From: Mycosarcoma maydis
Lineage: Eukaryota; Basidiomycota; Ustilaginomycetes; Ustilaginales
Length of the DNA stretch: 64,000 nt
NCBI RefSeq assembly: GCF_000328475.2
Contig: NC_026491.1
Location: 186,001 to 250,000, forward strand
Reading direction: 5' to 3'
This document shows positions 2,522 through 57,365 of this stretch, piece after piece. The notes under the pieces are model-generated. The model did no database searches, was not told the DNA's origin, and worked only from the letters and a program-made list of their open reading frames with translations. The stretch's first letter is position 1; each line of letters opens with the position of its first letter. Made by a program: the position numbers and the translations under genes.

Positions 2522-5449
2522 TGGAGATGAAGATGAAGGATCTGGAATGGGGTATGGGGTGGACGAGGTAGGATGAGAAAGACGAGCTTGGGATATAAGA
2601 ACTTGCCGGGACGGACGGGCTCAGGCAATCGAGTACGTTTAAGATCGTCACAGATGCAGATGCTCGCAGGCGGATAAGGGCCCTAAAATTTGTTTATTGT
2701 TTTAATTTTTGTGCGAGGCGCTTGTCTCAACGAACAAAGCCGATACAGTCAAAAGTCAGAGCTGTACCTGCAGAGCAAAGCATCTTGGCGGTCAAGACGT
2801 TTACAAGCTCTTTGCAAGTTAGCTCGGATAGCCAACTAGCACCAAAGGGTAATAAGGACGCAGGGGCTTCGCAAGCAAGGCAAGTCGAGGACTGGCCACT
2901 TTCAGTCAACCGTGTTGAGGTTGGTGAGGGAGAATGCAGAGCAGGTTAGTCGTTGCGGCTATGGCTGTGGTAGCAGCAAAAGGATTTTACGACCGGATAG
3001 TAAGACACAACGAGGCGCTGACTAACTTCGAGTGGTCGGCAAACTTTACCTCAACTGGCCCATTCTCTGTGTTGGCCATTCGCCTCATCTATGCAACAGG
3101 AGGCGGGGGCTGAACGCCCTTTCGCCAATTGCGAGTGCGAACAACCCTGCAAATCTGAAAGGATACGAATGAGCGGCAGGGGCCAAGAAATTTAGCGAGC
3201 AAAGCCAGTACCTCCTTTACTAGTCAAGTCTTGCTCCCGCCCACCACCACAAATCGTGAATCTGAGTCAATCACGATGAACTTCAGAATTTGCTGAAATC
3301 AAAGGCTACGTGCAATCAAAACCCAGGCTTACAGCTTCTCTAAACGAAAAGAGAAGGGAAAAATAAATAAAAAGACTGATGAACTTCAAGACAATAAGTT
3401 AACTTATAAAAAAAAACTTTAAGAGTGGAAATACTTAAACGAGAGACAAGCGTGGAGGCAGAAAGCAGACCTGGCGTAAGGGCGCAGGGCCGTGCAGGTG
3501 GGAAAAGATTTGCCAGGAAAGAAAAAGTCGGAGCGCACGGCGCGCTTCGGATTTTGTTTGGATCGGCAGCGTGTGCGCAGTACCTCAGCATTTCTGTTTG
3601 TTCTGCTTCCTCCCGCACTTGCCGTGTCTAGCCGCCTTTATTGTGGAGACCCTTTACCTTTTTTCAGTTCCTGATGTTGGGTCCAAAAAGTATGCTCTGA
3701 ACTGGCACGCGGTCGCACCAGATTTGGCTTGCTCTCTAATCTTATCATGTTGATATTTGTCGGCTTGAGCTTCAACGGCTAGGAGAGCAACAACGGATGG
3801 CACTTGACTATTGTCAAACTACGTGCGGGATCGAGTATTCTCATTGGCTGTTGGAGCCAAGAACACGGACAGATTGTGCTCAACACTTGGCGTTTAATCC
3901 CCCCGTCGTCATATCATAAACAATATGCATAACAAGACGATCGGGCGGTTAGAAAGAACTGCGCATGGTTATTCAGTACATTCGGCTCTTGTCTAGTGAC
4001 CCTTCAATTCTCTGTTGGAGCGCGGCCTTTTTGGTGGTAACATGCAGCGCCTGGTGTCAAGTTTTCCGTTTTAGCTTATGTTTCTAACAAGATTCACGCT
4101 CGTTGAAACAAAAGAGAAGCTGTCCGGTCCTTGTCTGGGCGGCTCGCGGCATCTTCTGTCCGGTTAGACAGTTCCGAAAGCGATTTCAAAGCCGGGCACC
4201 AATGACCCAATATTGAGCTACCAACCAGAGCCACAGGCAATCGAGAAACGTGAGAAGGGCCATTGCGCTAGCAATCGGATCGAATAGAATAGTCTGAAAC
4301 CATGACGTCTCGCTCGCAAAACCAAACTTCTGATACTCGTTGCTCAGCTCTAGGGATTTACCAACGACTTGATATGTCTCGAAGTCAAGCAACCATTCAG
4401 TTGTAAGCCGCTAACAATCAGCCGTAGTGTGGGAAAGTATGGACGTGGGCGCCAATAGCGCAATTGCCTTTGGCATTGTCGGCGTTGTGAGAGACCGCTG
4501 AATTTGATTCGAGCTGGACGAGACCGTATATTTGCTTGCCTTGATCGGGTCGTAGCAACATACACCTGCCTATATTTTCAGAGGCGAGTCAGAAAAAAGA
4601 GCTACTGCAGGATCCCATGGCAACCCGTTTCGGATCAGACAGAGCCGGGACAACTTTGCTTGAGAACAAAGCCGGAACTGGGGCCAACAAGAGCAGAAAA
4701 GATGACAAGTACGTTGGCGAACTCAGGATCTGACCTCATATACAGAACGTACAGCATTCCGTCAGAGACAGGAGCTTTGAAAACGCGGTGGTCTTCCGTC
4801 GACGGATGATTGGCTTATTCCTCGCGGGCGTCAAAAAGGCAGACTTATGACAAAATATGCCTGTGCTGGTTCTCAAGTACAGCCCTTGCTTTGCGTTCTG
4901 AAAGATGGACTACAACCTTGATTCAGAGGTTGACGCGGTCATCTTGGGTCCCGATAGCTAGTTGAGCTGCTTCAACAGTTCAGACGCACGTGCAAGCGCA
5001 CCGCTCGATGCACAGTAATGACACCGCTGTAAGCATTTTGTCTGCATCCCGTGTCTCGCCTGAAAGGGTCCTGCGTCGGTCCGAAGAGCTACGCCAGAAA
5101 GATGCGGTTGACCGGCTGTCTCAGCCAAGGATTAATGATCGCCTCGCTTGACCTGAATCAACGGTACTCACGACTGACCAAGCGGAAAGACTGTAGAGTG
5201 AATCGGGAAAAGTCATTATCCGTCAATAGTTCAGTTTCAATATCTGCAGATGGAACAACCATACGCTTTTCTCTTGCACACGCCGCGCTGCACAAGTGCC
5301 GAGATAAGACCCAAGTCCCGGAAGACACTTTCATCGAGACGTCTCCAGCAAGTAGCAAATGTAGCTCTTGCCGAAAGTCTGTGCAAGTTCTGATAGTAAC
5401 ACTCATTGTGTGCCTCGTTCCTAAGCGAGCTATACACATGCAAAATGCA

Positions 5450-8188: not shown

Positions 8189-9628
8189 CAAACGCTGACT
8201 CGCCGAATCGGAGCGCTTTGTAGGAATGCTTGAGCGGTAAAGTATAGCTCGATCCAGTAGAATCACAGTATGATCGATCCGGTGTCTCAATTTCGGAAAC
8301 AAGTGAGTCTTCTTCCAAAACATTAATGATTATTTAAAATAAAAAGTGAGACAGCCTAAGTCGTGATTCACGATTGTTTGTCCGGTGCCATGCTGTACGG
8401 CATGAGTTGCGCCGCCTATGACGGGAAAAATGGGTCACCAAGAAAAGATGGTTTGGTTTCCTTTTTTAGTTTCTAAGCTACGTAGGGCGTCGCTCCGTCA
8501 GCCTTTAGCATCAAAGGCCATCTCTAATCAAAGCGTGAAGCTCGTCACACTCTCATGCCTGTGACTGTCACACAGTGCTTGCAGCTGCAATGCTACGCAT
8601 GGCTGCACAACTCTCTGCTGGCCGGCATCGACCCCCTTGTCTCGCCTCCAGCCCTCCTGTCGCTTGCCGCAATTTTCAGCCGAGCTATTCAGAGACTACA
8701 TCTCGCTCGTCCATTCGCAAACTTGCGCCTTGGTCACCTTTGAGCTTTCGCCGACGACACGACAGCTGGTAACGCTAATGGTGAATGATTCGATCGTCGG
8801 GTGCTTTCTCGCACCTGGTTTGAGCAAAGATTTGCACCCACATTCACGATACTTCTGCTTTGCTGCCTGTATGCTACACAATCTGCTGCAACCGCACCCT
8901 CGAAATCATTCGTGTGACGTGTGGAGTCGCATGAAATAAAACATCTCTTAAACACTCGCTTGCTGGTCAGCTAGACGTCCGCTCCTGACAGCCCCATTCC
9001 CCCTTCCTGCTTGCATCTTTACACTACAAATCGTCTTCAATCTTCGCAAAGCTTAATTTCCTTGCAGGCAACGCTCTTTGCCATCGACGGTTTGCGTGAC
9101 GATCTCGAACTCGCAGCCTTCTTTGCCTAAATTGACTGCAGGTGACAACGCCCACATTCACGATTGCTGCTCGCTTCTGACTGCGGCTTGACGCACACCT
9201 GTCGACCTAGCTTCAACTCGTGTTGCGTGTTGCAACCGTCTCGATAGAAGTCTCTAGTGTCGTGTTCCCGTCGTTTCGACACCAGCATTGCCCCCACCTG
9301 TGCCCTCCTTATTACTCGCCACCCCTTTCCTTTCGCTCCATCTACACCCCCTTGCATCTGCCCCACACCTCAACACAGATTGTTACTTTCGCCGCCGTTC
9401 TTGCCATCACGCACGCAACCCACTGCTTCGCCTACACCGCCAAAAAAAATATTCCTGGCGTACACGGTGCAAAGCACGGTCCCGTCGTCACCACTCCAGC
9501 TCAGCTGTATCCCCTTCCTTCCAATTGATCTGCATTTGCGTGGGCCGCTTGCATGGCAGCGAATTTGCAAGATTTGAACGTCAACGCTGGACACAGGCAT
9601 TCTGTTCAAGCCCAACATATTGACAAAC

Positions 9629-47045: not shown

Positions 47046-48965
47046 CTACTCCAACGTAGCAAGATCCCTCCTGACCTCTTGCTCGGCGGCAATCTTGGCG
47101 AGCTGCATAGCTTCGAGCTTCTCACCGCCTGCCTGTCGCAACTTGAGCTCTTCGATGGCCTTCAATTTCTTGTTGAGATTGCGTACCTTTTTTTCCAAGT
47201 TGGCTGCGCTTGAGTTGCCGCCTACCTCTGCAGCACCAGATGAAGCAGTGCCAGCTGATTCTTCTACCACTGTTACACTAGCGCTAGCAGCGTTGGCGTT
47301 CTTGCCATTCTGCTGTTGCTTGCCGCCCTTCTTCTTGCCGTCCTTCTGGTTGGTTGCGGCATTGCCGTTGGTGCGTGGAGCGGAGCCAGGTGCACCGGGG
47401 ATGGCGCGTTTGCGGTTACCTGATCCGGGTGCTTGGTAGGTGCCATTTTGCGAGCCGGAGCGAGCAAGGTCTGGTGTGGAAGCACCTGAGCCACCTTCGT
47501 CGATGCGCTTGTAAATGTCTGGTGTACCTTGACCGCGGGCGCCCGGTGGACGGTAAGTTCCCGTGGGTCGCTTGGTGGCGGCTTTGGTTGCCAGGTACGA
47601 GGCAGCGGCGGCAGAGGCGGCAGGTGCGCTCGGGATCTGAGCAGGGAAAGCGACGAGACCGGCGTTGGAACCTGGACGCCAGCCAGCTTGGTAAAGCTCG
47701 TCGATCATGTCGACGTGAACGAGCTGACCGGTGCAGTGCCAAATCTTGACGCCGTTCTCCACACGCAGACGCGGGCTGAGTGTAGCAGTGAGCAAGAAAT
47801 GGCCATCGGGAGACCACTGACAGACGGAGCTGTTGCTTGCGTCCATAGAAAAGATTTTGCCCTTAGACAGCTCTTGGCGGTCCCAGACGTCGACGGTGCC
47901 AGACAGGTTGCCGAAGCCAGCAATGCAAAAGAGTCGACCCTGTGGGTTAAAGGCGACAAAGTTGCGTGGTTGTGTGCCGAGCTCGGCAATGACGTTGACA
48001 CGATGGCTGAAGAGCACCGCCTTGGCGGGCATGTAGCCGTAGATGACGATGAATTCTTTCGAGTTGGGGTTCCATTCAAAGTCGTGGATGGGACCTTCTT
48101 TGTCGAGCGCAACACGGCAGTCAAAGTCGCCACGAACCGACATGAGGTAAAGGTTAGTTTCACCGTAGTACGATTTGCCGGTCTTGTCATGGTCGGTGGA
48201 GGTCATGAACAAGAGCGCAGAGCCGGCCTTGTTCCACTTGATTTGAATCTTGTCGGCCTTGAAAAACGTCTTTTGCGAGACGGGCGCGGGGGGAGATTCC
48301 GGGCAAGGGATGAGAGAAGCGAGAGAATAGACGCGAACGGAAGCGGGAGCGCCCTTTTTCTCGCCACAAAATACGGCGATGCTGGGCTTGTCGCCTGGAC
48401 CAACTTCAAAGCTGGTAATGCCCTCGAGACGCAACCTGCCAATGACGCCCTTGTCGGTAATATGACGAGGCTCGTAGATCTGGAGCTCGGTGGAAACCTG
48501 CCTTACACAGTACTGCTCGTTGGCGGTGAATTGAAAGAAGCAGCCTTCTTGCGACTTGCGCTCGAAAGCGGCGACGGTCTCTCCAGTCTCGGTGTCCCAC
48601 ATTTTGAGGTTGCGAGCATTGGAGCCGTCATCAAGCTTGGAGGGGCGCTCCCATGTGCTCAGGAAAGCACCTCTAGGTGAGAACTGGAGGTCGACGACCT
48701 TGGGGACCGGAAGATCGCGCTTCACGGACGAGGTGGAGGCAGCACGAGTGTCCACGAGGCGAGTGAAATCGTCCATGGCGGCGGCAAAGGTGCTGCCATC
48801 GGGACTGTACTGAAAGACGCGAGTAGCGCCTGTCACCTGGTCAAAGCCGCTGACGGAGGTGTAAGAGGGCGAACCGGTGTTGAGTCCGATGGATTTTTGA
48901 GCACGGTAGGCCCACTGCGTGGTAGGCTCACCCACAGCGACCGAGACGGCCGATGGTTCGGACAT
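47046..48965 (-). CDS. Eukaryotic translation initiation factor 2A (eIF2A)
   Basis: 639-residue protein with an N-terminal WD-type beta-propeller. Recognisable blocks include FQYSPDGSTFA, LQFSPRGAFLSTWERP and NLKMWDTETGE. Further blocks are IQIKWNKAGSALLFMTSTDHDKTGKSYYGE, the IHDFEWNPNSKEFIVIYGYMPAKA segment (the most diagnostic eIF2A motif), FNPQGRLFCIAGFGNLSGTVDVWD and CQWSPDGHFLLTATLSPRLRVENGVKIW. The C-terminus has Gly/Ala/Lys-rich linkers and a coiled coil (LEKKVRNLNKKLKAIEELK). Known eIF2A binds initiator tRNA on 40S subunits in non-canonical initiation. Its end faces the dioxygenase gene at a distance of about 240 bp. Confidence 0.95.
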   Translation of the reverse strand: MSEPSAVSVAVGEPTTQWAYRAQKSIGLNTGSPSYTSVSGFDQVTGATRVFQYSPDGSTFAAAMDDFTRLVDTRAASTSSVKRDLPVPKVVDLQFSPRGAFLSTWERPSKLDDGSNARNLKMWDTETGETVAAFERKSQEGCFFQFTANEQYCVRQVSTELQIYEPRHITDKGVIGRLRLEGITSFEVGPGDKPSIAVFCGEKKGAPASVRVYSLASLIPCPESPPAPVSQKTFFKADKIQIKWNKAGSALLFMTSTDHDKTGKSYYGETNLYLMSVRGDFDCRVALDKEGPIHDFEWNPNSKEFIVIYGYMPAKAVLFSHRVNVIAELGTQPRNFVAFNPQGRLFCIAGFGNLSGTVDVWDRQELSKGKIFSMDASNSSVCQWSPDGHFLLTATLSPRLRVENGVKIWHCTGQLVHVDMIDELYQAGWRPGSNAGLVAFPAQIPSAPAASAAAASYLATKAATKRPTGTYRPPGARGQGTPDIYKRIDEGGSGASTPDLARSGSQNGTYQAPGSGNRKRAIPGAPGSAPRTNGNAATNQKDGKKKGGKQQQNGKNANAASASVTVVEESAGTASSGAAEVGGNSSAANLEKKVRNLNKKLKAIEELKLRQAGGEKLEAMQLAKIAAEQEVRRDLATLE

Positions 48966-49251
48966 GGTGGAGAAAGAAGCAGGACTGACACAGCAAGCAA
49001 ATACGTATCGGTCTTGTTCGAGAGAGAGAGGCGAAGCCCTGTGGGTTGATGTGATTCCTGCAACGATTAAACCGCGATCTCAGGCTTCACCGCAGAAGAT
49101 CAAGAGCTGTAAGTCAGAGCGAGAAAACGGAGTTCGTCGTTACGTTCTAATGTTGCCTTAGCGATGCAGCGATCCAGGGCGACAGAAAAGGAGCGAGACC
49201 GTAAGAAGGAGGGCAAAGGTGTTGGTACAGCCGAAGGACTTGGAGAAAAAG

Positions 49252-49320
49252 AGGAAGGAGAAGGAGAAGGAGAAGGAGAAGGAGAAGGAGAAGGAGGAGG
49301 AGTAGGAGGAGGAGGAGGAC
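49252..49320. repeat. (GAAGGA)n / (GGAGGA)n tract
   Basis: About seven copies of the hexamer GAAGGA passing into GGAGGA, in the eIF2A upstream region (a CT-rich tract on the gene's own strand). Confidence 0.95.
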
Positions 49321-49384
49321 AATGAATGAAGCAAAGATGCAGTTGGCCGTCAGTCTCGGTGTAGAAAAGAGGAGAGCTGAAACC

Positions 49385-50090
49385 TGATCGTGAATTACGA
49401 ATTTATCAATAAGTTATCACATTAGTTAATTGTGAGTCGTGAATGAATCACGAATTTGGTTGATTATTCCAGAGAACAAAGAGACTCTCTGTTGTGCTGC
49501 TGCTGCTGCTGCTGTTGCTGTTGGCTTTTTGACCAATTCATTCACGATTGTGATTCATGATTCACGATTCGTGATTTGTGGTTCACGACTATTAATTATT
49601 TTTGAGAAGAATCGCCGAATTTCTAAATTCCGTGTGCTTCGTGGCTGACAAGCGTCAAGGTGAAGGCCAATTCAAACCACACGTGATGGTGTAATGCTGA
49701 ATTCAACCTCGTCGTGCGTGCCTCTTTTCATCTGTGCCTTTGGTCCATCAGCTTTCGTGATTCGTGATTCACGATTCACGCTTCACACTTCACGGTTCAT
49801 GATGAAAAATGCTTCCAAGCAAAACTTTCAGGGTCTAACAAGCTCACGTTCAAAATCGCATCCTGCCAGAGTCCAACACTCGTGACTCACGACTCACGCT
49901 CACGACTTTTCGTCTGAAAGCACACGCGTTACTCACTCTCCACGCTCTTTTTCAGCAGCACAAGAGCATAGACACAAGCGCATGAGCCAATCACGAACAC
50001 ACCAACACTCACCGCTCACACTCACCTCACACTCACGACTCACACACCCACTCGTGCATCACGACTCTGGGAAGCTCACGACTGACAGCT
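49385..50090. repeat. Cluster of TCACGA/TCGTGA words in the dynein promoter region
   Basis: More than fifteen copies of the core in both orientations. They include runs such as GATTCATGATTCACGATTCG (about 49552-49571), TTCGTGATTCGTGATTCACG (about 49756) and a looser CTCACGACT variant (about 49880-50080). The cluster ends about 80 bp before the dynein start codon. Confidence 0.85.
49495..49525. repeat. (CTG)n trinucleotide tract
   Basis: About nine CTG/TTG triplets in non-coding DNA upstream of the dynein gene. Confidence 0.9.
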
Positions 50091-50172
50091 ATCCCTCGTC
50101 CTAGCCACCTCATCATCCGCTCTCTGGTCATCTCATCCAGCACGTTGGCATCAGCTGCGTCTCAAGTCCATC

Positions 50173-53100
50173 ATGGACGTAGTCCACGTCGATGGCGCAA
50201 AAAAGGCGCCAGGAGATTGGTCGCCTGATGCGTGTCGCACCGTCGCTGCCGAGCTTACAAACACGCTTGATCTCGGTGCCAATCGTCAGCTCATAGTAGA
50301 GGCGCTTGTCTTTATTCACTTCTCCGTATACACCTTTGCAGAAAGGCTACTTCGACGTCAAGGCCGCAAATTCCATCAGTCGCCTCGTCACTTTCTCAGC
50401 TTCATCGAATACTACGTCCAAGTCTCGAATCAGAAGCGCGACCAGCTCGAGGATCAGCAGCGCTTTTTGCTCGTCGGTCTCGACAAGCTCCGTTCTACCG
50501 TAGACCAAGTAGAAGAGCTCCAAAAGAGCCTCGCTGTCAAGCGCACCCAACTCGAGGCCAAGAACGCACAGGCAAATCAGAAGCTGCAGAGCATGGTCAA
50601 GGATCAGCAAGAGGCCGAACAGAAACGCGCAGCTTCCATCGAGATTCAAGCCGCCCTCGCAAACCAGGAGGAACAGATCGGTCAACGAAGGCAGGTCGTC
50701 ATGGCCGATCTCGCAGATGCAGAGCCTGCCGTTCAAGATGCTCAGGCTAGCGTCAGCAACATCAAGAAACAGCACCTCACAGAAGTCCGTTCCATGGGCA
50801 ATCCGCCTCTTCCTGTCAAAAATGCCATGGAATCCGTCTGCATCATCCTAGGTCATAAAATCGAAAGCTGGAAGACCGTTCAAGCCATTATCCGCAGAGA
50901 TGACTTTATCGCTTCCATCGTCAACTTTGACACGGATCGTCAAATGACGCGCCAGATTCGCGAAAAAATGATCCGCGACTACCTCTCCAAACCTGGCTAC
51001 GACTTTGCCACCATCGATCGTGCAAGTAAGGCGTGCGGCCCTCTCGCAAAGTGGGTTATTGCCCAGGTTCGCTTCTCGGAAATCCTCGACAAAGTCGGAC
51101 CACTCCGCGACGAGGTACAGTCGCTTGAGCAGCAAGCCGAGGATACCAAACTCCAAGCCAGCGAGATTGTCGTTATGATCTCAGAGCTCGAAAACAGCAT
51201 CGCCACTTACAAAGACGAGTACGCCGCCCTTATCAGTGAAACGCAGGCCATCAAGTCCGAGATGGAGCGTGTACAGAATCGCGTCTCTCGTTCTATGCAG
51301 CTCCTTGACAGTCTTTCATCCGAAAAGCACCGTTGGGAAACAGGCAGCCGCACCTTCGACGACCAGATGAGCACCATCATCGGCGATGCTCTTCTCTCCG
51401 CTGCCATGCTCGCCTACGCTGGATACTTTGACCAACAGTACCGCCAATCCATGTGGCAGTACTGGTCAGACCACCTCCGTGAGGCACAAATCAAGTTTAA
51501 GCCCGAACTCTCGTTTGCCGACTATCTCTCTACCGCCGACGAGCGCCTCGAGTGGCAGGCCAAATCGCTGCCCGCCGATACGCTTTGCACCGAAAACGCC
51601 ATCATGCTTAAGCGCTGGAACCGCTATCCGCTCATCATTGACCCCTCCGGTCAGGCTGTTGATTTCTTGCTCAACGAATACAAGGTGCAGAAGCTCACCG
51701 TCTCCAGCTTCCTCGACGAGGCTTTCCTCAAAGCACTCGAAAGTTCGCTTCGTTTCGGCAACCCCCTTCTTATCCAAGATGTTGAGTACCTCGATCCCAT
51801 CCTCAATCCGATTCTGAACAAGGAGCTTCGCAAGACCGGCGGCCGTGTCCTCATCCGTCTTGGCAGCCAAGATATCGACTTTTCGCCCTCGTTCAACATG
51901 TTTCTTACCACTCGCGATCCCTCGGTCGAATTCTCGCCGGATGTCTGCAGCCGTGTCACCTTTGTCAACTTCACCATGACGCGCAGTAGTCTCCAGAGTC
52001 AGTCGCTTGACCAGGTGCTCAAAGTGGAACGTCCAGACACTGACCGCAAGCGTACCGACCTCATGAAGCTGCAAGGCGAGTTTCGCCTTCGACTCAGGCA
52101 TCTTGAGCGATCGCTCCTTACCGCTCTCAATGAGTCGGAGGGAAATATCTTGGACGATGACAAGGTTATTGGCACGCTAGAGACGCTCAAAAAGGAAGCC
52201 GCCGAAGTGACGTCCAAGGTGGAAGAGACAGACGCCATCATGCAAGAGGTTGATCAGGTCACAGCCCAGTATGTTCCGCTCGCAAAAGCGTGCAGCTCTG
52301 TGTTCTTTGTGCTCGACCAACTCCACCTCATTTCGCACTTTTACCAGTTCTCGCTGCGCTTTTTCCTCGACATCTTTGACTTTGTTTTGCGCCGCAATCC
52401 CCACCTCGACGGAGTGACGGATCCAAAGCAGAGGCTCGACATTCTCATGCGCGATCTTTTCCTCGTCGTCTTTCACAGAACTAGCAAGGCGCTTGCACAC
52501 CACGACCACGTCATGCTAGCCATGCTGCTTGCTCAGATCAAAGCGCGCGAAGAGGCTCACGCGGATACCCTCGACAGCGAAGAATACGAGTTCTTGCTCG
52601 AAGGCGGCAACATTGCAGCAGCAGCAGCGGCGGCGGCTGCTGCTGGTGCTGGGAGCGGGGCTGGTGGGTCAGAACAAGCCAGTCACACCACAAAGCTCAG
52701 AGGTGATGGAGAAGTAGAAGCTATGCTCGACGAGGAGCAACTGGTACGCGTTCAAGTGTTCAAACGCCTTGCTTTCTTCCGCACGATAGAGGAACACATG
52801 GAAACCCATACAGAACAGTGGTTGACCTTTCTCGGCTCCAACAGTCCAGAAACGGTGGTGCCTGTCTTTTGGCCTCAAGAAGAGCAGAGCCAAGGGCTGT
52901 CAGACCAGGTGCGCAAAATGTTGGTTGTCAAGTGCCTGCGCCCGGACCGCATCGTTCAGGCCATGGCTGCGTTCACATCTCGCATCTTTGGCCAGGATGT
53001 GCTTGGCGATCCGGGATACGAGCTCGGCAAAATTGTCGCGGAAGAGGTAGATGCGAGTACGCCGATCGCACTCTGCTCTGTGCCCGGCTACGACGCCAGC

Positions 53101-54963
53101 TACCGAGTCGATCATCTGGTCAAGCTTGTTGGTGCGCGATGCACACCTGTCGCCATGGGTTCACAGGAAGGTTTCACATTGGCGGACCACGCAATCACAT
53201 CAGCAGCACGCACTGGCAACTGGGTTCTGCTCAAGAATGTCCATCTCGCACCCAGCTGGCTGTCGCAACTCGAGAAAAAGATGCACAGTCTAAAGCCGAA
53301 CCGCAACTTCCGTCTTTTCCTCACCTGCGAGACCTCGCCTTCGATTCCGGTGAATTTCCTGCGCGCCTCGCGCATTCTGATGAACGAGCCTCCGCCGGGC
53401 ATCCGTGCTAGCATGCTCGACAGCCTCAAAAGTATTGCACCTGCACGGCTGCAGCGCGGACCGGCCGAAACATGCAGGCTCTACTTCCTACTGGCTTTCT
53501 TCCATGCCACACTTACAGAGCGGTTGAGATACACTCCTCTGGGCTGGTCAAAACCATTCGAGTTCAACGATTCGGACGCTGAGGCTGCGCTCGACATCAT
53601 CGAAGGATGGGTAGCTCAAGTTGCCAAAGGTCGTGCCAATGTTGATCCGCAGCAGCTGCCATGGGACGCCATCCGATCACTCCTCAAGCAGAGCGTGTAC
53701 GGTGGCAAGATCGACAATGTTCCCGATCAGACATTGCTCGACTCGTTTGTCGATGAGCTCTTTTGCGCAAGCGCGTACGACGTCGACTTTAGGCTTGTTA
53801 AGGACGAAAAGGATCCGCTCGTGGCTCCCGATGGCACCAAGATGGAGACTTTTATCAGCTGGGTACAGGCGCTGCCGGAGCAGCAACCTCCGCAGTGGTT
53901 GGCGTTGCCGCCGAGTGCTGAAAAAGTGATTGCTGCAGCACAAGGTACAGCTCTGTTGAACAAGTTGGTTAAGATGAAGCAGTTGGCGGATGATGACGAT
54001 GACGAGACTGTTAGTCATGATCGCAGCGGTAGTGGGAGCGGAGGCGCTCAAGAGGCAACTACTGCCAGAAGTACATCGGAAGGTGGCGCAGCGTCGAGTT
54101 CGGCCTCGGTGCAGCCCAGCTGGATGAAGGCACTGCGTGCGAATGCTTTGCAATGGCTAACATTGCTGCCCACCACTGTGACTTTGTTTGGAAGCGATGC
54201 TGGTTCCGTCCACGATCCCTTGTACCGCTTCTGGGCACGAGAGCACCGCACAGGCTCGTCGCTGCTCTGCGCAGTGAGAAACGACCTGCAGGAGGTGGTG
54301 GCTGTGTGCGACGGCGACTCGCGCCAGACGAATCACAACCGAACGCTGCTGACCGACTTACCGAAGGCGGTCATCCCACAATCGTGGCGTCGGTACTCGG
54401 TACCCAAGTCAATGACGCTGGCTGAATGGATTGTCGACCTGCGAGCGCGGCTCGAGCAGTTGGAACGCATCACGCGCGAAGCCAGCGAGCTGGGAGCGGG
54501 CGCTAGTGGTGGCTACGACATGGCTGAAGTCGTGCTTGGACTGCTCTTCTCGCCAGGAGCTTACCTCACTGCGACAAGGCAAAGCGTTGCACACGCATCC
54601 AACGTCTCTCTTGAGAATCTCTCGTTGCGGTTGTTGCTGAACGACGCGAAAGCAGGTCTGGAACCAGGCAAGTTTGCCATCAGAGGGTTGAAGTTGCAAG
54701 GCGCCAACTGGGACCCGGAAGCCAAGCGCATCAAACTCAACGATGGTGGTGTTACAAATCTTGGTCTGACAGCGCTGGTGTGGGAGCAGCAGCAGCAGAA
54801 GCAGGGCGAAGGCGCCGAGGGTGCGGAGCAAGGCAAGGTGCGTATTAGCGTCTACTTGAACCAGGACAGGAGTCAGGCGCTGTTTGCGACCATGTTAGAT
54901 GTCGATGTTGGCGTGAAGGGTGCCACTGTGGCTCAGAGGGCGGTCGCTTTGCGTGCATCGTAG
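50173..54963 (+). CDS. dyn2: Cytoplasmic dynein heavy chain, C-terminal half (split motor, Dyn2)
   Basis: 1596-residue protein containing only the C-terminal part of a dynein motor. It begins at the end of AAA4 (ALVFIH, then SPRHFLSFIEYYV). It runs through stalk coiled coil CC1 (about 85-200) with GLDKLRSTVDQVEELQ, then the microtubule-binding domain (about 205-325) beginning NPPLPVKNAMESV at residue 210 and including GYDFATIDRASKACGPLAKWV. CC2, AAA5 (IDPSGQAVDFL, LIQDVEYLDPILNPIL, FMLTTRDP-like) and AAA6 (NWVLLKNVHLAPSWLSQLEKK, RLFLTCE) follow, then the C-terminal domain. No P-loop GxxxxGK[ST] is present, so it cannot hydrolyse ATP alone. Ustilago maydis is known to encode its dynein heavy chain in two genes, dyn1 and dyn2, and this fits dyn2. 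Low-complexity loops (Ala tract 815-824, Ser/Gly stretch near 1290, Gln/Glu/Gly near 1540) are insertions relative to ordinary dyneins. The partner gene is not in the window. Confidence 0.95.
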   Translation: MDVVHVDGAKKAPGDWSPDACRTVAAELTNTLDLGANRQLIVEALVFIHFSVYTFAERLLRRQGRKFHQSPRHFLSFIEYYVQVSNQKRDQLEDQQRFLLVGLDKLRSTVDQVEELQKSLAVKRTQLEAKNAQANQKLQSMVKDQQEAEQKRAASIEIQAALANQEEQIGQRRQVVMADLADAEPAVQDAQASVSNIKKQHLTEVRSMGNPPLPVKNAMESVCIILGHKIESWKTVQAIIRRDDFIASIVNFDTDRQMTRQIREKMIRDYLSKPGYDFATIDRASKACGPLAKWVIAQVRFSEILDKVGPLRDEVQSLEQQAEDTKLQASEIVVMISELENSIATYKDEYAALISETQAIKSEMERVQNRVSRSMQLLDSLSSEKHRWETGSRTFDDQMSTIIGDALLSAAMLAYAGYFDQQYRQSMWQYWSDHLREAQIKFKPELSFADYLSTADERLEWQAKSLPADTLCTENAIMLKRWNRYPLIIDPSGQAVDFLLNEYKVQKLTVSSFLDEAFLKALESSLRFGNPLLIQDVEYLDPILNPILNKELRKTGGRVLIRLGSQDIDFSPSFNMFLTTRDPSVEFSPDVCSRVTFVNFTMTRSSLQSQSLDQVLKVERPDTDRKRTDLMKLQGEFRLRLRHLERSLLTALNESEGNILDDDKVIGTLETLKKEAAEVTSKVEETDAIMQEVDQVTAQYVPLAKACSSVFFVLDQLHLISHFYQFSLRFFLDIFDFVLRRNPHLDGVTDPKQRLDILMRDLFLVVFHRTSKALAHHDHVMLAMLLAQIKAREEAHADTLDSEEYEFLLEGGNIAAAAAAAAAAGAGSGAGGSEQASHTTKLRGDGEVEAMLDEEQLVRVQVFKRLAFFRTIEEHMETHTEQWLTFLGSNSPETVVPVFWPQEEQSQGLSDQVRKMLVVKCLRPDRIVQAMAAFTSRIFGQDVLGDPGYELGKIVAEEVDASTPIALCSVPGYDASYRVDHLVKLVGARCTPVAMGSQEGFTLADHAITSAARTGNWVLLKNVHLAPSWLSQLEKKMHSLKPNRNFRLFLTCETSPSIPVNFLRASRILMNEPPPGIRASMLDSLKSIAPARLQRGPAETCRLYFLLAFFHATLTERLRYTPLGWSKPFEFNDSDAEAALDIIEGWVAQVAKGRANVDPQQLPWDAIRSLLKQSVYGGKIDNVPDQTLLDSFVDELFCASAYDVDFRLVKDEKDPLVAPDGTKMETFISWVQALPEQQPPQWLALPPSAEKVIAAAQGTALLNKLVKMKQLADDDDDETVSHDRSGSGSGGAQEATTARSTSEGGAASSSASVQPSWMKALRANALQWLTLLPTTVTLFGSDAGSVHDPLYRFWAREHRTGSSLLCAVRNDLQEVVAVCDGDSRQTNHNRTLLTDLPKAVIPQSWRRYSVPKSMTLAEWIVDLRARLEQLERITREASELGAGASGGYDMAEVVLGLLFSPGAYLTATRQSVAHASNVSLENLSLRLLLNDAKAGLEPGKFAIRGLKLQGANWDPEAKRIKLNDGGVTNLGLTALVWEQQQQKQGEGAEGAEQGKVRISVYLNQDRSQALFATMLDVDVGVKGATVAQRAVALRAS

Positions 54964-55718: not shown

Positions 55719-56150
55719 TGTGAGATTGGGCTCAATCTGTCTATGAGTATTGCCAGTGCAGATCGTCACTTGATGAGCCCCGTTACGATCTCTGTCTGTC
55801 TGTGTGGCTTGTATAGACGCTATTGACGATGAGGATCGAAGAGCAGAAACGAGATGCATTTCATGATTCGTGATTCTGATTCTGCTTCTTCTCGCTTGCC
55901 AATTGTTAGTCATCACCCGAGTCAAACATCCGAGTTCCGGACCGAGCGCGTATCGGTCACAGTCACAAGTCACGAGTCACGAGCATTCACGATTTGGGTG
56001 GTTCGAGGCTCAGAAAGTCACACAGGTGTCACTTTGCGCCGTGAGCACACGTCTTTTCTGAGTCGTGAGTGTTGGTCTCTCTGCTCTGTGTGTGTGTATG
56101 TAGCTTCCATCTCCACTGCTTCAAATCGCGAGCAACGAGCGATAGTCGAC
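55719..56150. other. Short divergent promoter region
   Basis: 432 bp between the small membrane protein and the GGTase-I beta gene. Contains ATTCGTGATTCTGATTCTG (55863-55881), AAGTCACGAGTCACGAGCATTCACGATTT (55966-55995) and a GTGTGTGTATGT run near 56088. Confidence 0.6.
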
Positions 56151-57365
56151 ATGTCGACCACTGCTTCCGTGAAAGAGCTGACGTCCCGCCTGGAAACCAA
56201 AAAGCACATCTCCTTCCTGCTCAGATGCCTGCGCATGCTTCCTCAACCCTACACTTCGGCTGATGACCAACGAATGACGCTCGGCTACTTTGCTATCTCT
56301 GGACTTGACCTTCTCAACGCAACCAACAAGATCCCCACCGAGGAGAAAGTCGAGCTGATTGATTGGGTGTATGCGCAGCAGCTACCAACGGGCGGATTCC
56401 GCGGCTCGCCCAGCACCACCTCGCCATGCTCTTCTTCTACCACATCGGCCTCAGGAGGAGCAAACATAGCTATGACTTACGCAGCACTTCTCGTCCTCGC
56501 CATACTACGGGATGACTTTGCACGCCTCGATCGTGAGCCGCTCAAACGCTTCATCAGCTCACTTCAGCATCGAGATGGCGGGTTTGCAGCGGAGCAAGCA
56601 GTGGTGGGAGGGATCGTCGATCGAGATCCAAGGTTCACGTATTGCGCTGTTGCGATCTGCTCAATGCTCGGTGAAGCAGAAGAAGGAGTGATGGATTTGG
56701 AAGCGTTGCAAAGCTTTTTGCAAAGGTGTCAGAGGTACGATGGTGGGTTCGGAGCTAGTGAGTCGCACGAAGCGCATGCCGGGATGACATACTGCTGTGT
56801 TGCTGCGCTGCATTTGCTTGCTCGGAATGGTCCTGAATGGGAGAGGAAAAACGAGGCGGTATCCTGGCTTGTGCATCGTCAAGTAGCCCCCACCTTGGAG
56901 CAGGCTGCCACAAAGACAGCACCATCACGAGTCACGCCTCCGGATTCCGAATCAGAATCGTCAGACCAAGAGCAAGAGCGAGAGCAAGACCACCTCACCG
57001 GCGGCTTTCAAGGTCGACCAGCGAAACTGCCTCCAGACGTATGCTACTCCTTTTGGAATGGTGCATGCTTGTCGCTGTTGGAGCAACACGACCTGATCGA
57101 TAGCTTCGCCGATGCGACCTACGTCTTGTCTGCACAGAGCAGAGTCGGTGGGATAGCCAAGATACCAGATGACCATCCGGATCTGTTACATACGTATCTG
57201 GGCTTGGCTTCACTGTCCTTGCACCAAGCAGCATCAACGGAAGCAAAATCGGGAGGTGCAGGAGAAGCAGGGGCAAGCATCGACTTTGGATTGAAACCGC
57301 TCGATGCAGCTTACAACTGCAGTATGACGACCAAAGAGTGGATACGAACGCAGCTAACCAAATAG
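56151..57365 (+). CDS. CDC43: Geranylgeranyltransferase type I beta subunit
   Basis: 404-residue prenyltransferase beta subunit that, with the shared alpha subunit, geranylgeranylates CaaL proteins such as Rho1 and Cdc42. The N-terminus (KKHISFLLRCLRMLP…YFAISGLDLL) matches the GGTase-I type rather than farnesyl- or Rab-GGTase. Alpha-alpha barrel repeats follow with GGFRGSP, MTYAALLVL, RDGGFAAE, YDGGFGASESHEAHAGMTYC and GGFQGRP. Zinc ligands are D296, C298 (DVCYSFW) and H347 (LLHTYLGL). A Ser/Asp/Glu-rich insertion of about 40 residues lies just before GGFQGRP. The frame is open 99 codons upstream, but that part is made of spacer repeats, so ATG 56151 in context GACATGTCG is chosen. Confidence 0.92.
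   Translation: MSTTASVKELTSRLETKKHISFLLRCLRMLPQPYTSADDQRMTLGYFAISGLDLLNATNKIPTEEKVELIDWVYAQQLPTGGFRGSPSTTSPCSSSTTSASGGANIAMTYAALLVLAILRDDFARLDREPLKRFISSLQHRDGGFAAEQAVVGGIVDRDPRFTYCAVAICSMLGEAEEGVMDLEALQSFLQRCQRYDGGFGASESHEAHAGMTYCCVAALHLLARNGPEWERKNEAVSWLVHRQVAPTLEQAATKTAPSRVTPPDSESESSDQEQEREQDHLTGGFQGRPAKLPPDVCYSFWNGACLSLLEQHDLIDSFADATYVLSAQSRVGGIAKIPDDHPDLLHTYLGLASLSLHQAASTEAKSGGAGEAGASIDFGLKPLDAAYNCSMTTKEWIRTQLTK

Follow-up and report, generated by a model that had tools for sequence, protein, structure and literature searches.

A smut fungus dynein heavy chain encoded by two genes, with a predicted joint at the fourth AAA module

Introduction

How can a dynein motor be built from a gene that opens shortly before the stalk, and where is the rest of the heavy chain encoded? 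These questions are raised by an uninterrupted reading frame in a 64,000-nucleotide stretch of a smut fungus genome (C14:186001-250000, hereafter the window). The original prediction, made from the letters of the window, was that this frame is one of two genes that share a single heavy chain between them. The split-motor interpretation is supported by the present analysis. The frame is dyn2, most likely the same gene as Ustilago maydis dyn2. To judge from sequence comparison, its product and that of a second gene, dyn1, are very probably separate proteins that form one AAA+ ring. The AAA4 module of this ring has most likely lost its ATP cycle and become a joint.

The two-gene split of smut dynein is already known since 2001; the split itself was a surprise then and is one no longer. 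U. maydis Dyn1 and Dyn2 had been invoked in the original prediction as an analogy. The split inferred from that comparison holds, whereas the genome is most likely that of U. maydis itself, that is, the known case. The AAA4 pattern described below would matter because the role of this module is disputed: in the accessible part of PMC7683685, blocked ATP binding at this site stops the yeast motor and slows the Dictyostelium one. Fungi whose AAA4 has been altered in nature offer a ready experiment on this point, and the alteration suggests why the ring can be cut there. The two AAA4 alterations, a changed Walker A motif and a lost loop, were not found in listings of dynein papers or in the accessible parts of PMC4540427, PMC7373426, PMC8950801, PMC7683685, and PMC4879348; Straube et al. 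(2001) may have them.

The dyn2 locus

The open frame is real and exactly placed (Table 1). Its product, Dyn2, is 100% identical over its full length to database protein P0002 and 59-92% identical to named Ustilaginomycotina proteins, the closest named relatives among the matches listed being those of Pseudozyma hubeiensis (92%) and Sporisorium scitamineum (91%). Dyn2 aligns with residues 3138-4628 of human cytoplasmic dynein 1 (1560 bits). Pfam recovers the stalk and microtubule-binding domain, AAA5, AAA6, and the C-terminal domain that had been predicted for the frame, every one above cut-off, and a pattern scan of the translation for [AG]xxxxGK[ST] is empty, in agreement with the predicted lack of a P-loop. 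The further claim that none of AAA1-AAA4 is present stands for AAA1-AAA3 and fails for AAA4, since residues 14 to about 92, the latter boundary being an estimate, align with the AAA4 small subdomain. The leader that precedes the conserved GDW measures 8-17 residues in most relatives and is longer in a few predictions.

Table 1. Features of the dyn2 locus, in window coordinates
Feature	Position	Strand	Extent or basis
dyn2, encoding the C-terminal third of the cytoplasmic dynein 1 heavy chain	50173..54963	+	1596 aa, one open frame, ATG to stop
N-terminal leader, 13 residues ending KAP, ahead of conserved GDW	50173..50211	+	comparison with relatives
AAA4 small subdomain (residues 14 to ~92), without the 21-residue loop; PRxFL	50212..50448	+	alignment
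Stalk coiled coil and microtubule-binding domain	50473..51465	+	PF12777, residues 101-431
AAA5	51550..52209	+	PF12781 (AAA_9), residues 460-679
AAA6 large region	53053..53376	+	PF03028 (D6), residues 961-1068
AAA6 lid	53476..53919	+	PF18198 (AAA_lid_11), residues 1102-1249
Dynein C-terminal domain	54103..54951	+	PF18199 (Dynein_C), residues 1311-1593
eIF2A-dyn2 intergenic region (divergent genes)	48966..50172	.	
eIF2A gene, divergent neighbour, outside the motor	47046..48965	-	PF08662, E 1.2e-84

The divergent eIF2A gene expected upstream is present. Downstream of dyn2 lies a prenyltransferase alpha-alpha toroid gene (window 55854-57365, plus strand; PF00432, E 3.5e-97). Two sequence features stand out on the upstream side. 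A GAAGGA repeat of 11 copies occupies window positions 49254-49319, upstream of eIF2A, and the near-palindrome CGTGATTCACGA occurs within 49388-50063 as well as at 8361, 13056, 25539, and 25881. The latter gives 12 matches with at most one mismatch against 0.64 expected in shuffles, counted on both strands with some places counted twice, and 7 of the 12 fall within the eIF2A-dyn2 intergenic region.

The partner gene dyn1

The second open frame that had been predicted to end within AAA4 is found on a different contig. It is dyn1, an uninterrupted frame of 3199 aa at C5:145711-155310, whose product contains the tail (DHC_N1), the linker (DHC_N2), AAA1, AAA2, and AAA3, followed by positions 2-187 only of the 259-position AAA4 model. 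The tail, linker, AAA1-AAA3, and AAA4 large subdomain absent from the Dyn2 polypeptide are thus encoded elsewhere in the same genome. Across 19,664,356 bases in 27 contigs, searches with DHC_N2, stalk, D6, and AAA_8 return one match each, and a 2640-residue dynein query reaches the dyn1 and dyn2 loci only. No single-chain dynein is found by these queries, nor is an AAA1-AAA4 sequence spliced to dyn2, which bears out the claim that the heavy chain comes from two genes. Two unlinked genes without a single-chain copy are the arrangement by which the split dynein of Ustilaginomycotina is recognized. The genome also encodes a dynein light intermediate chain. A U. maydis peptide listed in Table 3 of PMC4540427 occurs in this Dyn1, in keeping with the assignment to U. 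maydis, although five close relatives have the peptide as well.

A frame that lacks most of a motor might suggest a pseudogene, a truncation, or an assembly artefact. The chance of this is negligible, given that the GDW start region is shared by 37 of the 40 best Dyn2 matches, that the partner gene exists, and that both genes lie on long contigs, of 1.39 Mb for dyn1 and at least 250 kb for dyn2.

Beyond the dyn1 stop, a tandem array of seven copies of 228 bp extends over L007:207-1814 (C5:155507-157114). The opposite strand of the array holds an open frame (789-1814) that translates into three complete ubiquitin units plus the greater part of another, which indicates a polyubiquitin gene convergent with dyn1.

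Position of the break

Chains not split at AAA4 (hereafter unsplit, a term that takes in the tail-split chains of agarics as well as one Wallemia chain used in the AAA4 small alignment and the Phaffia comparison) read SPALFNR-CVLDWF-GDWS across the break site. Eighteen Dyn1 matches stop 6 (n=4), 7 (n=13), or 8 (n=1) residues past SPALFNR, and Dyn2 proteins restart, behind their short leader, at GDW, which lies 6 residues past SPALFNR in unsplit chains. The same break point is therefore conserved in the relatives compared, and in these alignments the break is the junction of the AAA4 large and AAA4 small subdomains. From the ungapped alignment of Dyn1 2970-3194 with human residues 2866-3090, we infer that the cut corresponds approximately to human F3094/G3095. 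The original prediction had put the break near the boundary between AAA4 and CC1, whereas the large/small junction precedes CC1 by about 80 residues. In Dyn2 the AAA4 small subdomain is short and diverged, and the phmmer match of Dyn2 to human dynein begins at residue 36.

A GT at the end of dyn1 and an AG just ahead of GDW in dyn2, both noted by eye, could hint that the two products are joined into one chain by trans-splicing or protein splicing and that there is no split motor at all. By the same inspection, the phases of these sites do not match and they would join out of frame, which led to rejection of trans-splicing at the GT/AG beside the break. In the compared relatives, too, the stop of the first gene and the start of the second occupy this same position, and separate mRNAs and polypeptides were reportedly observed by Straube and co-workers. 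A joined chain is accordingly highly improbable.

Had the split arisen by duplication and complementary loss, remnants of the missing half would be expected in the flanks of dyn1 and dyn2. None is detectable there by tblastn with pieces of AAA4, and the eIF2A-dyn2 intergenic region likewise holds no detectable remnant of the AAA4 large half; the best E value, 0.094, is no better than chance.

The AAA4 large half in Dyn1

The AAA4 large region was aligned to 281 proteins; a score threshold of 250 retained 202 of them and excluded the other 79. Nineteen of the 202 end within 20 residues past SPALFNR, namely the 18 matches and the Dyn1 of this genome, a near-duplicate of one of them (P0122, its near-twin in the database). 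Nine of the 18 we infer to belong to Ustilaginomycotina; at least two of the 18 (P0140, P0161) are incomplete at the N-terminal end.

In all 18, the Walker A lysine of AAA4 is replaced by arginine. The motif of this genome's Dyn1 reads GASGSGRT and thus departs from the GxxxxGK[ST] pattern of a working ATP site. P0133 (Violaceomyces) has the arginine too, ahead of an unrelated end of 26 residues that is probably a mispredicted exon. The remaining 182 proteins have lysine wherever the motif is readable (170 of 170; not aligned in 12). Among the 202 aligned proteins, neither a chain with the break and a lysine nor an unsplit chain with an arginine was seen. Agaric dyneins, which are split elsewhere, keep the AAA4 lysine, so that dividing dynein between two genes does not in general bring the arginine with it. 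The AAA1, AAA2, and AAA3 motifs are normal in the 18 except in P0262, which has no AAA2 motif fitting the search pattern. Among the 120 best matches of each search, no protein is named Malassezia. One dynein piece, P0123, named as from the ostracod Cyprideis torosa, scores far above what its 63-65% identity suggests and is perhaps an odd repeat or joined protein.

Other elements of the site persist. The Walker B DE is retained in 18 of 18, and both Walker B and the sensor-I asparagine are present in P0122 and in the translation of this genome's Dyn1 (CWTIDESQM, TMNPP). SPALFNR, which from its position would supply AAA3 with its arginine finger, shows no change in any of the 18. The Walker A arginine by itself is no proof that ATP binding is lost, and the Walker B DE is kept throughout. 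The retained Walker B is consistent with an AAA4 locked on nucleotide, in which the arginine would hold the phosphates without hydrolysis and ATP or ADP would permanently pin AAA4 large (Dyn1) to AAA4 small/AAA5 large (Dyn2). Such a lock is a serious possibility, though rather less than probable: the threonine next to the arginine has become alanine in 4 of the 18 (one of them Microstroma), and one of these four has TMVPP in place of TMNPP, which resembles decay and not a preserved pocket.

The AAA4 small half and rates of change

The Dyn2 set consists of the 37 matches with the GDW start region; the three others among the best 40 are P0031 and P0039, in which the start is missing, and P0040, a partial chain that is unsplit there. 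In all 37, GDW is separated from PRx[FY]L by a distance of 57, compared with 77-78 in 17 of 17 hand-picked chains not split at AAA4, all fungal and one from Wallemia. A single 21-column gap in the alignment accounts for the difference, and corresponds to a loop of 21 residues gone from AAA4 small in every one of the 37. The PR of PRxFL, whose arginine is presumed from general accounts of the site to be the sensor-II arginine, is retained in all of them, a further point in favor of the nucleotide lock.

Sequence identity singles out the same two subdomains. Relative to a Phaffia chain, AAA4 large has an identity of 0.902 in unsplit and 0.627 in split chains and AAA4 small of 0.703 and 0.392, while the difference between the two groups in eight other domains ranges from -0.056 to +0.014 (hand-picked chains, 16-17 of them unsplit and 8 or 11 split). 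A Schizophyllum reference gives similar values, 0.936 against 0.652 for AAA4 large and 0.708 against 0.375 for AAA4 small, with differences of at most 0.063 in six other domains. On trees with the topology fixed from other domains (10 or 11 split and 13 unsplit chains), the stem branch leading to the split clade, scaled to the unsplit portion of the tree, has a length of 0.554 for AAA4 large and 0.468 for AAA4 small, and of 0.000-0.069 for seven other domains. On this branch the change in each AAA4 half thus exceeds that in the other motor domains at least about 7-fold. All AAA4 changes fall on one branch and represent one evolutionary event, not 18, in which the decay of AAA4 may have come before or after the split, with or without a causal link.

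Inside the split clade the two halves behave differently. AAA4 large is still fast, its inside/unsplit ratio being 2.80 when four further domains of Dyn1 give 0.53-1.29, and AAA4 small is barely above AAA5 (0.991 against 0.939). Across 140 unsplit chains, 147 columns of AAA4 large show at least 98% constancy; the 18 split chains all keep 71 of these and have all changed at 21, 4 of the 21 being at segment edges. Among 120 such AAA3 large columns, 111 are kept in the 18 and none is lost. The continuing rate and the 21 changed columns would suit an AAA4 that is empty and relaxed, the motor no longer needing nucleotide there and the site drifting neutrally after the split. The 71 retained columns and the near-ordinary rate of AAA4 small argue against it, and relaxation, as far as these alignments go, is conceivable but on the doubtful side.

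A model for the cut ring

Dyn1 would contribute the tail, linker, AAA1-AAA3, and AAA4 large, and Dyn2 the AAA4 small subdomain, stalk, AAA5, AAA6, and C-terminal domain, the two assembling as one AAA+ ring. In the accessible part of PMC4879348, a small subdomain packs tightly on its neighbor's large one, the ATP site lies between a large subdomain, its own small one, and the next large one, and the ring in the ADP state shows a gap at AAA4L/AAA5L. Given this packing and this gap, the cut would follow a natural seam that opens anyway and spare the packed units, with AAA3S/AAA4L whole in Dyn1 and AAA4S/AAA5L whole in Dyn2. The AAA4 nucleotide pocket, however, would be crossed and broken by the cut. 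With its Walker A lysine replaced, AAA4 most likely acts as a joint that still lends its arginine finger to AAA3.

What such a joint does with nucleotide can be compared with engineered sites. In yeast, as described in the accessible part of PMC7683685, the AAA4 K/A mutation halts the motor because linker undocking is blocked, whereas E/Q, with hydrolysis blocked and nucleotide bound, slows it only slightly; in Dictyostelium, AAA4 K/A retains about 40% of its speed. By analogy, an AAA4 that holds nucleotide without hydrolysis would act like E/Q and an empty one like K/A. The yeast mutants therefore make an empty AAA4 surprising and suit a nucleotide-locked one, while the Dictyostelium mutant lends the empty, relaxed site some support. 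If AAA1 alone is strictly required for motility and the other sites are variably conserved, as is held in the same part of PMC4879348, an altered AAA4 is perhaps less remarkable. A nucleotide-holding AAA4 is slightly favored over an empty one.

The change from lysine to arginine, the lost 21-residue loop, the surge of change that both halves show on the stem, and the retained AAA3 finger together incline us, with some reserve, to the view that in Ustilaginomycotina the AAA4 site, formerly a regulatory ATPase, has become a joint of two proteins that does not hydrolyse ATP. If true, an essential dynein would work in these fungi without an AAA4 ATP cycle, on which yeast dynein depends.

Relation to known dyneins

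The closest known system is U. maydis itself. Straube et al. in 2001 (EMBO J 20:5091) reportedly found dyn1 and dyn2 on different chromosomes, with separate mRNAs and polypeptides; the two proteins are said to co-precipitate, to be essential, and to dissociate in extracts, and such dissociation would fit the loss of a nucleotide that staples them. The present genes are like those of Straube et al. (2001) in being two and in the split within the fourth AAA module, and most likely also in that both would be needed and would form a complex; no difference in the gene itself is known. The accessible part of PMC4540427, citing Straube, likewise states that Dyn1 and Dyn2 form a complex in the cell and are both essential.

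Two other basidiomycete splits differ in position. In the Agaricomycetes, dhc1 and dhc2 of Schizophyllum commune are separated at residue 1180, between tail and motor, and their deletions are viable (PMC4540427, accessible part). The Schizophyllum ring lies in one chain and keeps the AAA4 lysine, whereas that of Ustilaginomycotina is cut and has arginine. Wallemiomycetes dynein is also cut inside the ring, a cut placed in the same part of PMC4540427 between the first and second AAA modules. The C-terminal pieces of two Wallemia gene predictions (P0043, P0046) instead start within AAA1 large, before sensor I. Their AAA4 is whole, neither is among the proteins without the lysine, and their start points led to rejection of a general rule that would place every ring split at a large/small hinge.

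The single-chain cytoplasmic dynein 1 of human, Dictyostelium, and many fungi has the same domains in the same order, but in one chain. The 21-residue AAA4 small loop is present in 17 of 17 aligned chains not split at AAA4, all of them fungal. At the Walker A motif of AAA4, human dynein reads GVSGAGKT, against GASGSGRT in the Dyn1 of this genome.
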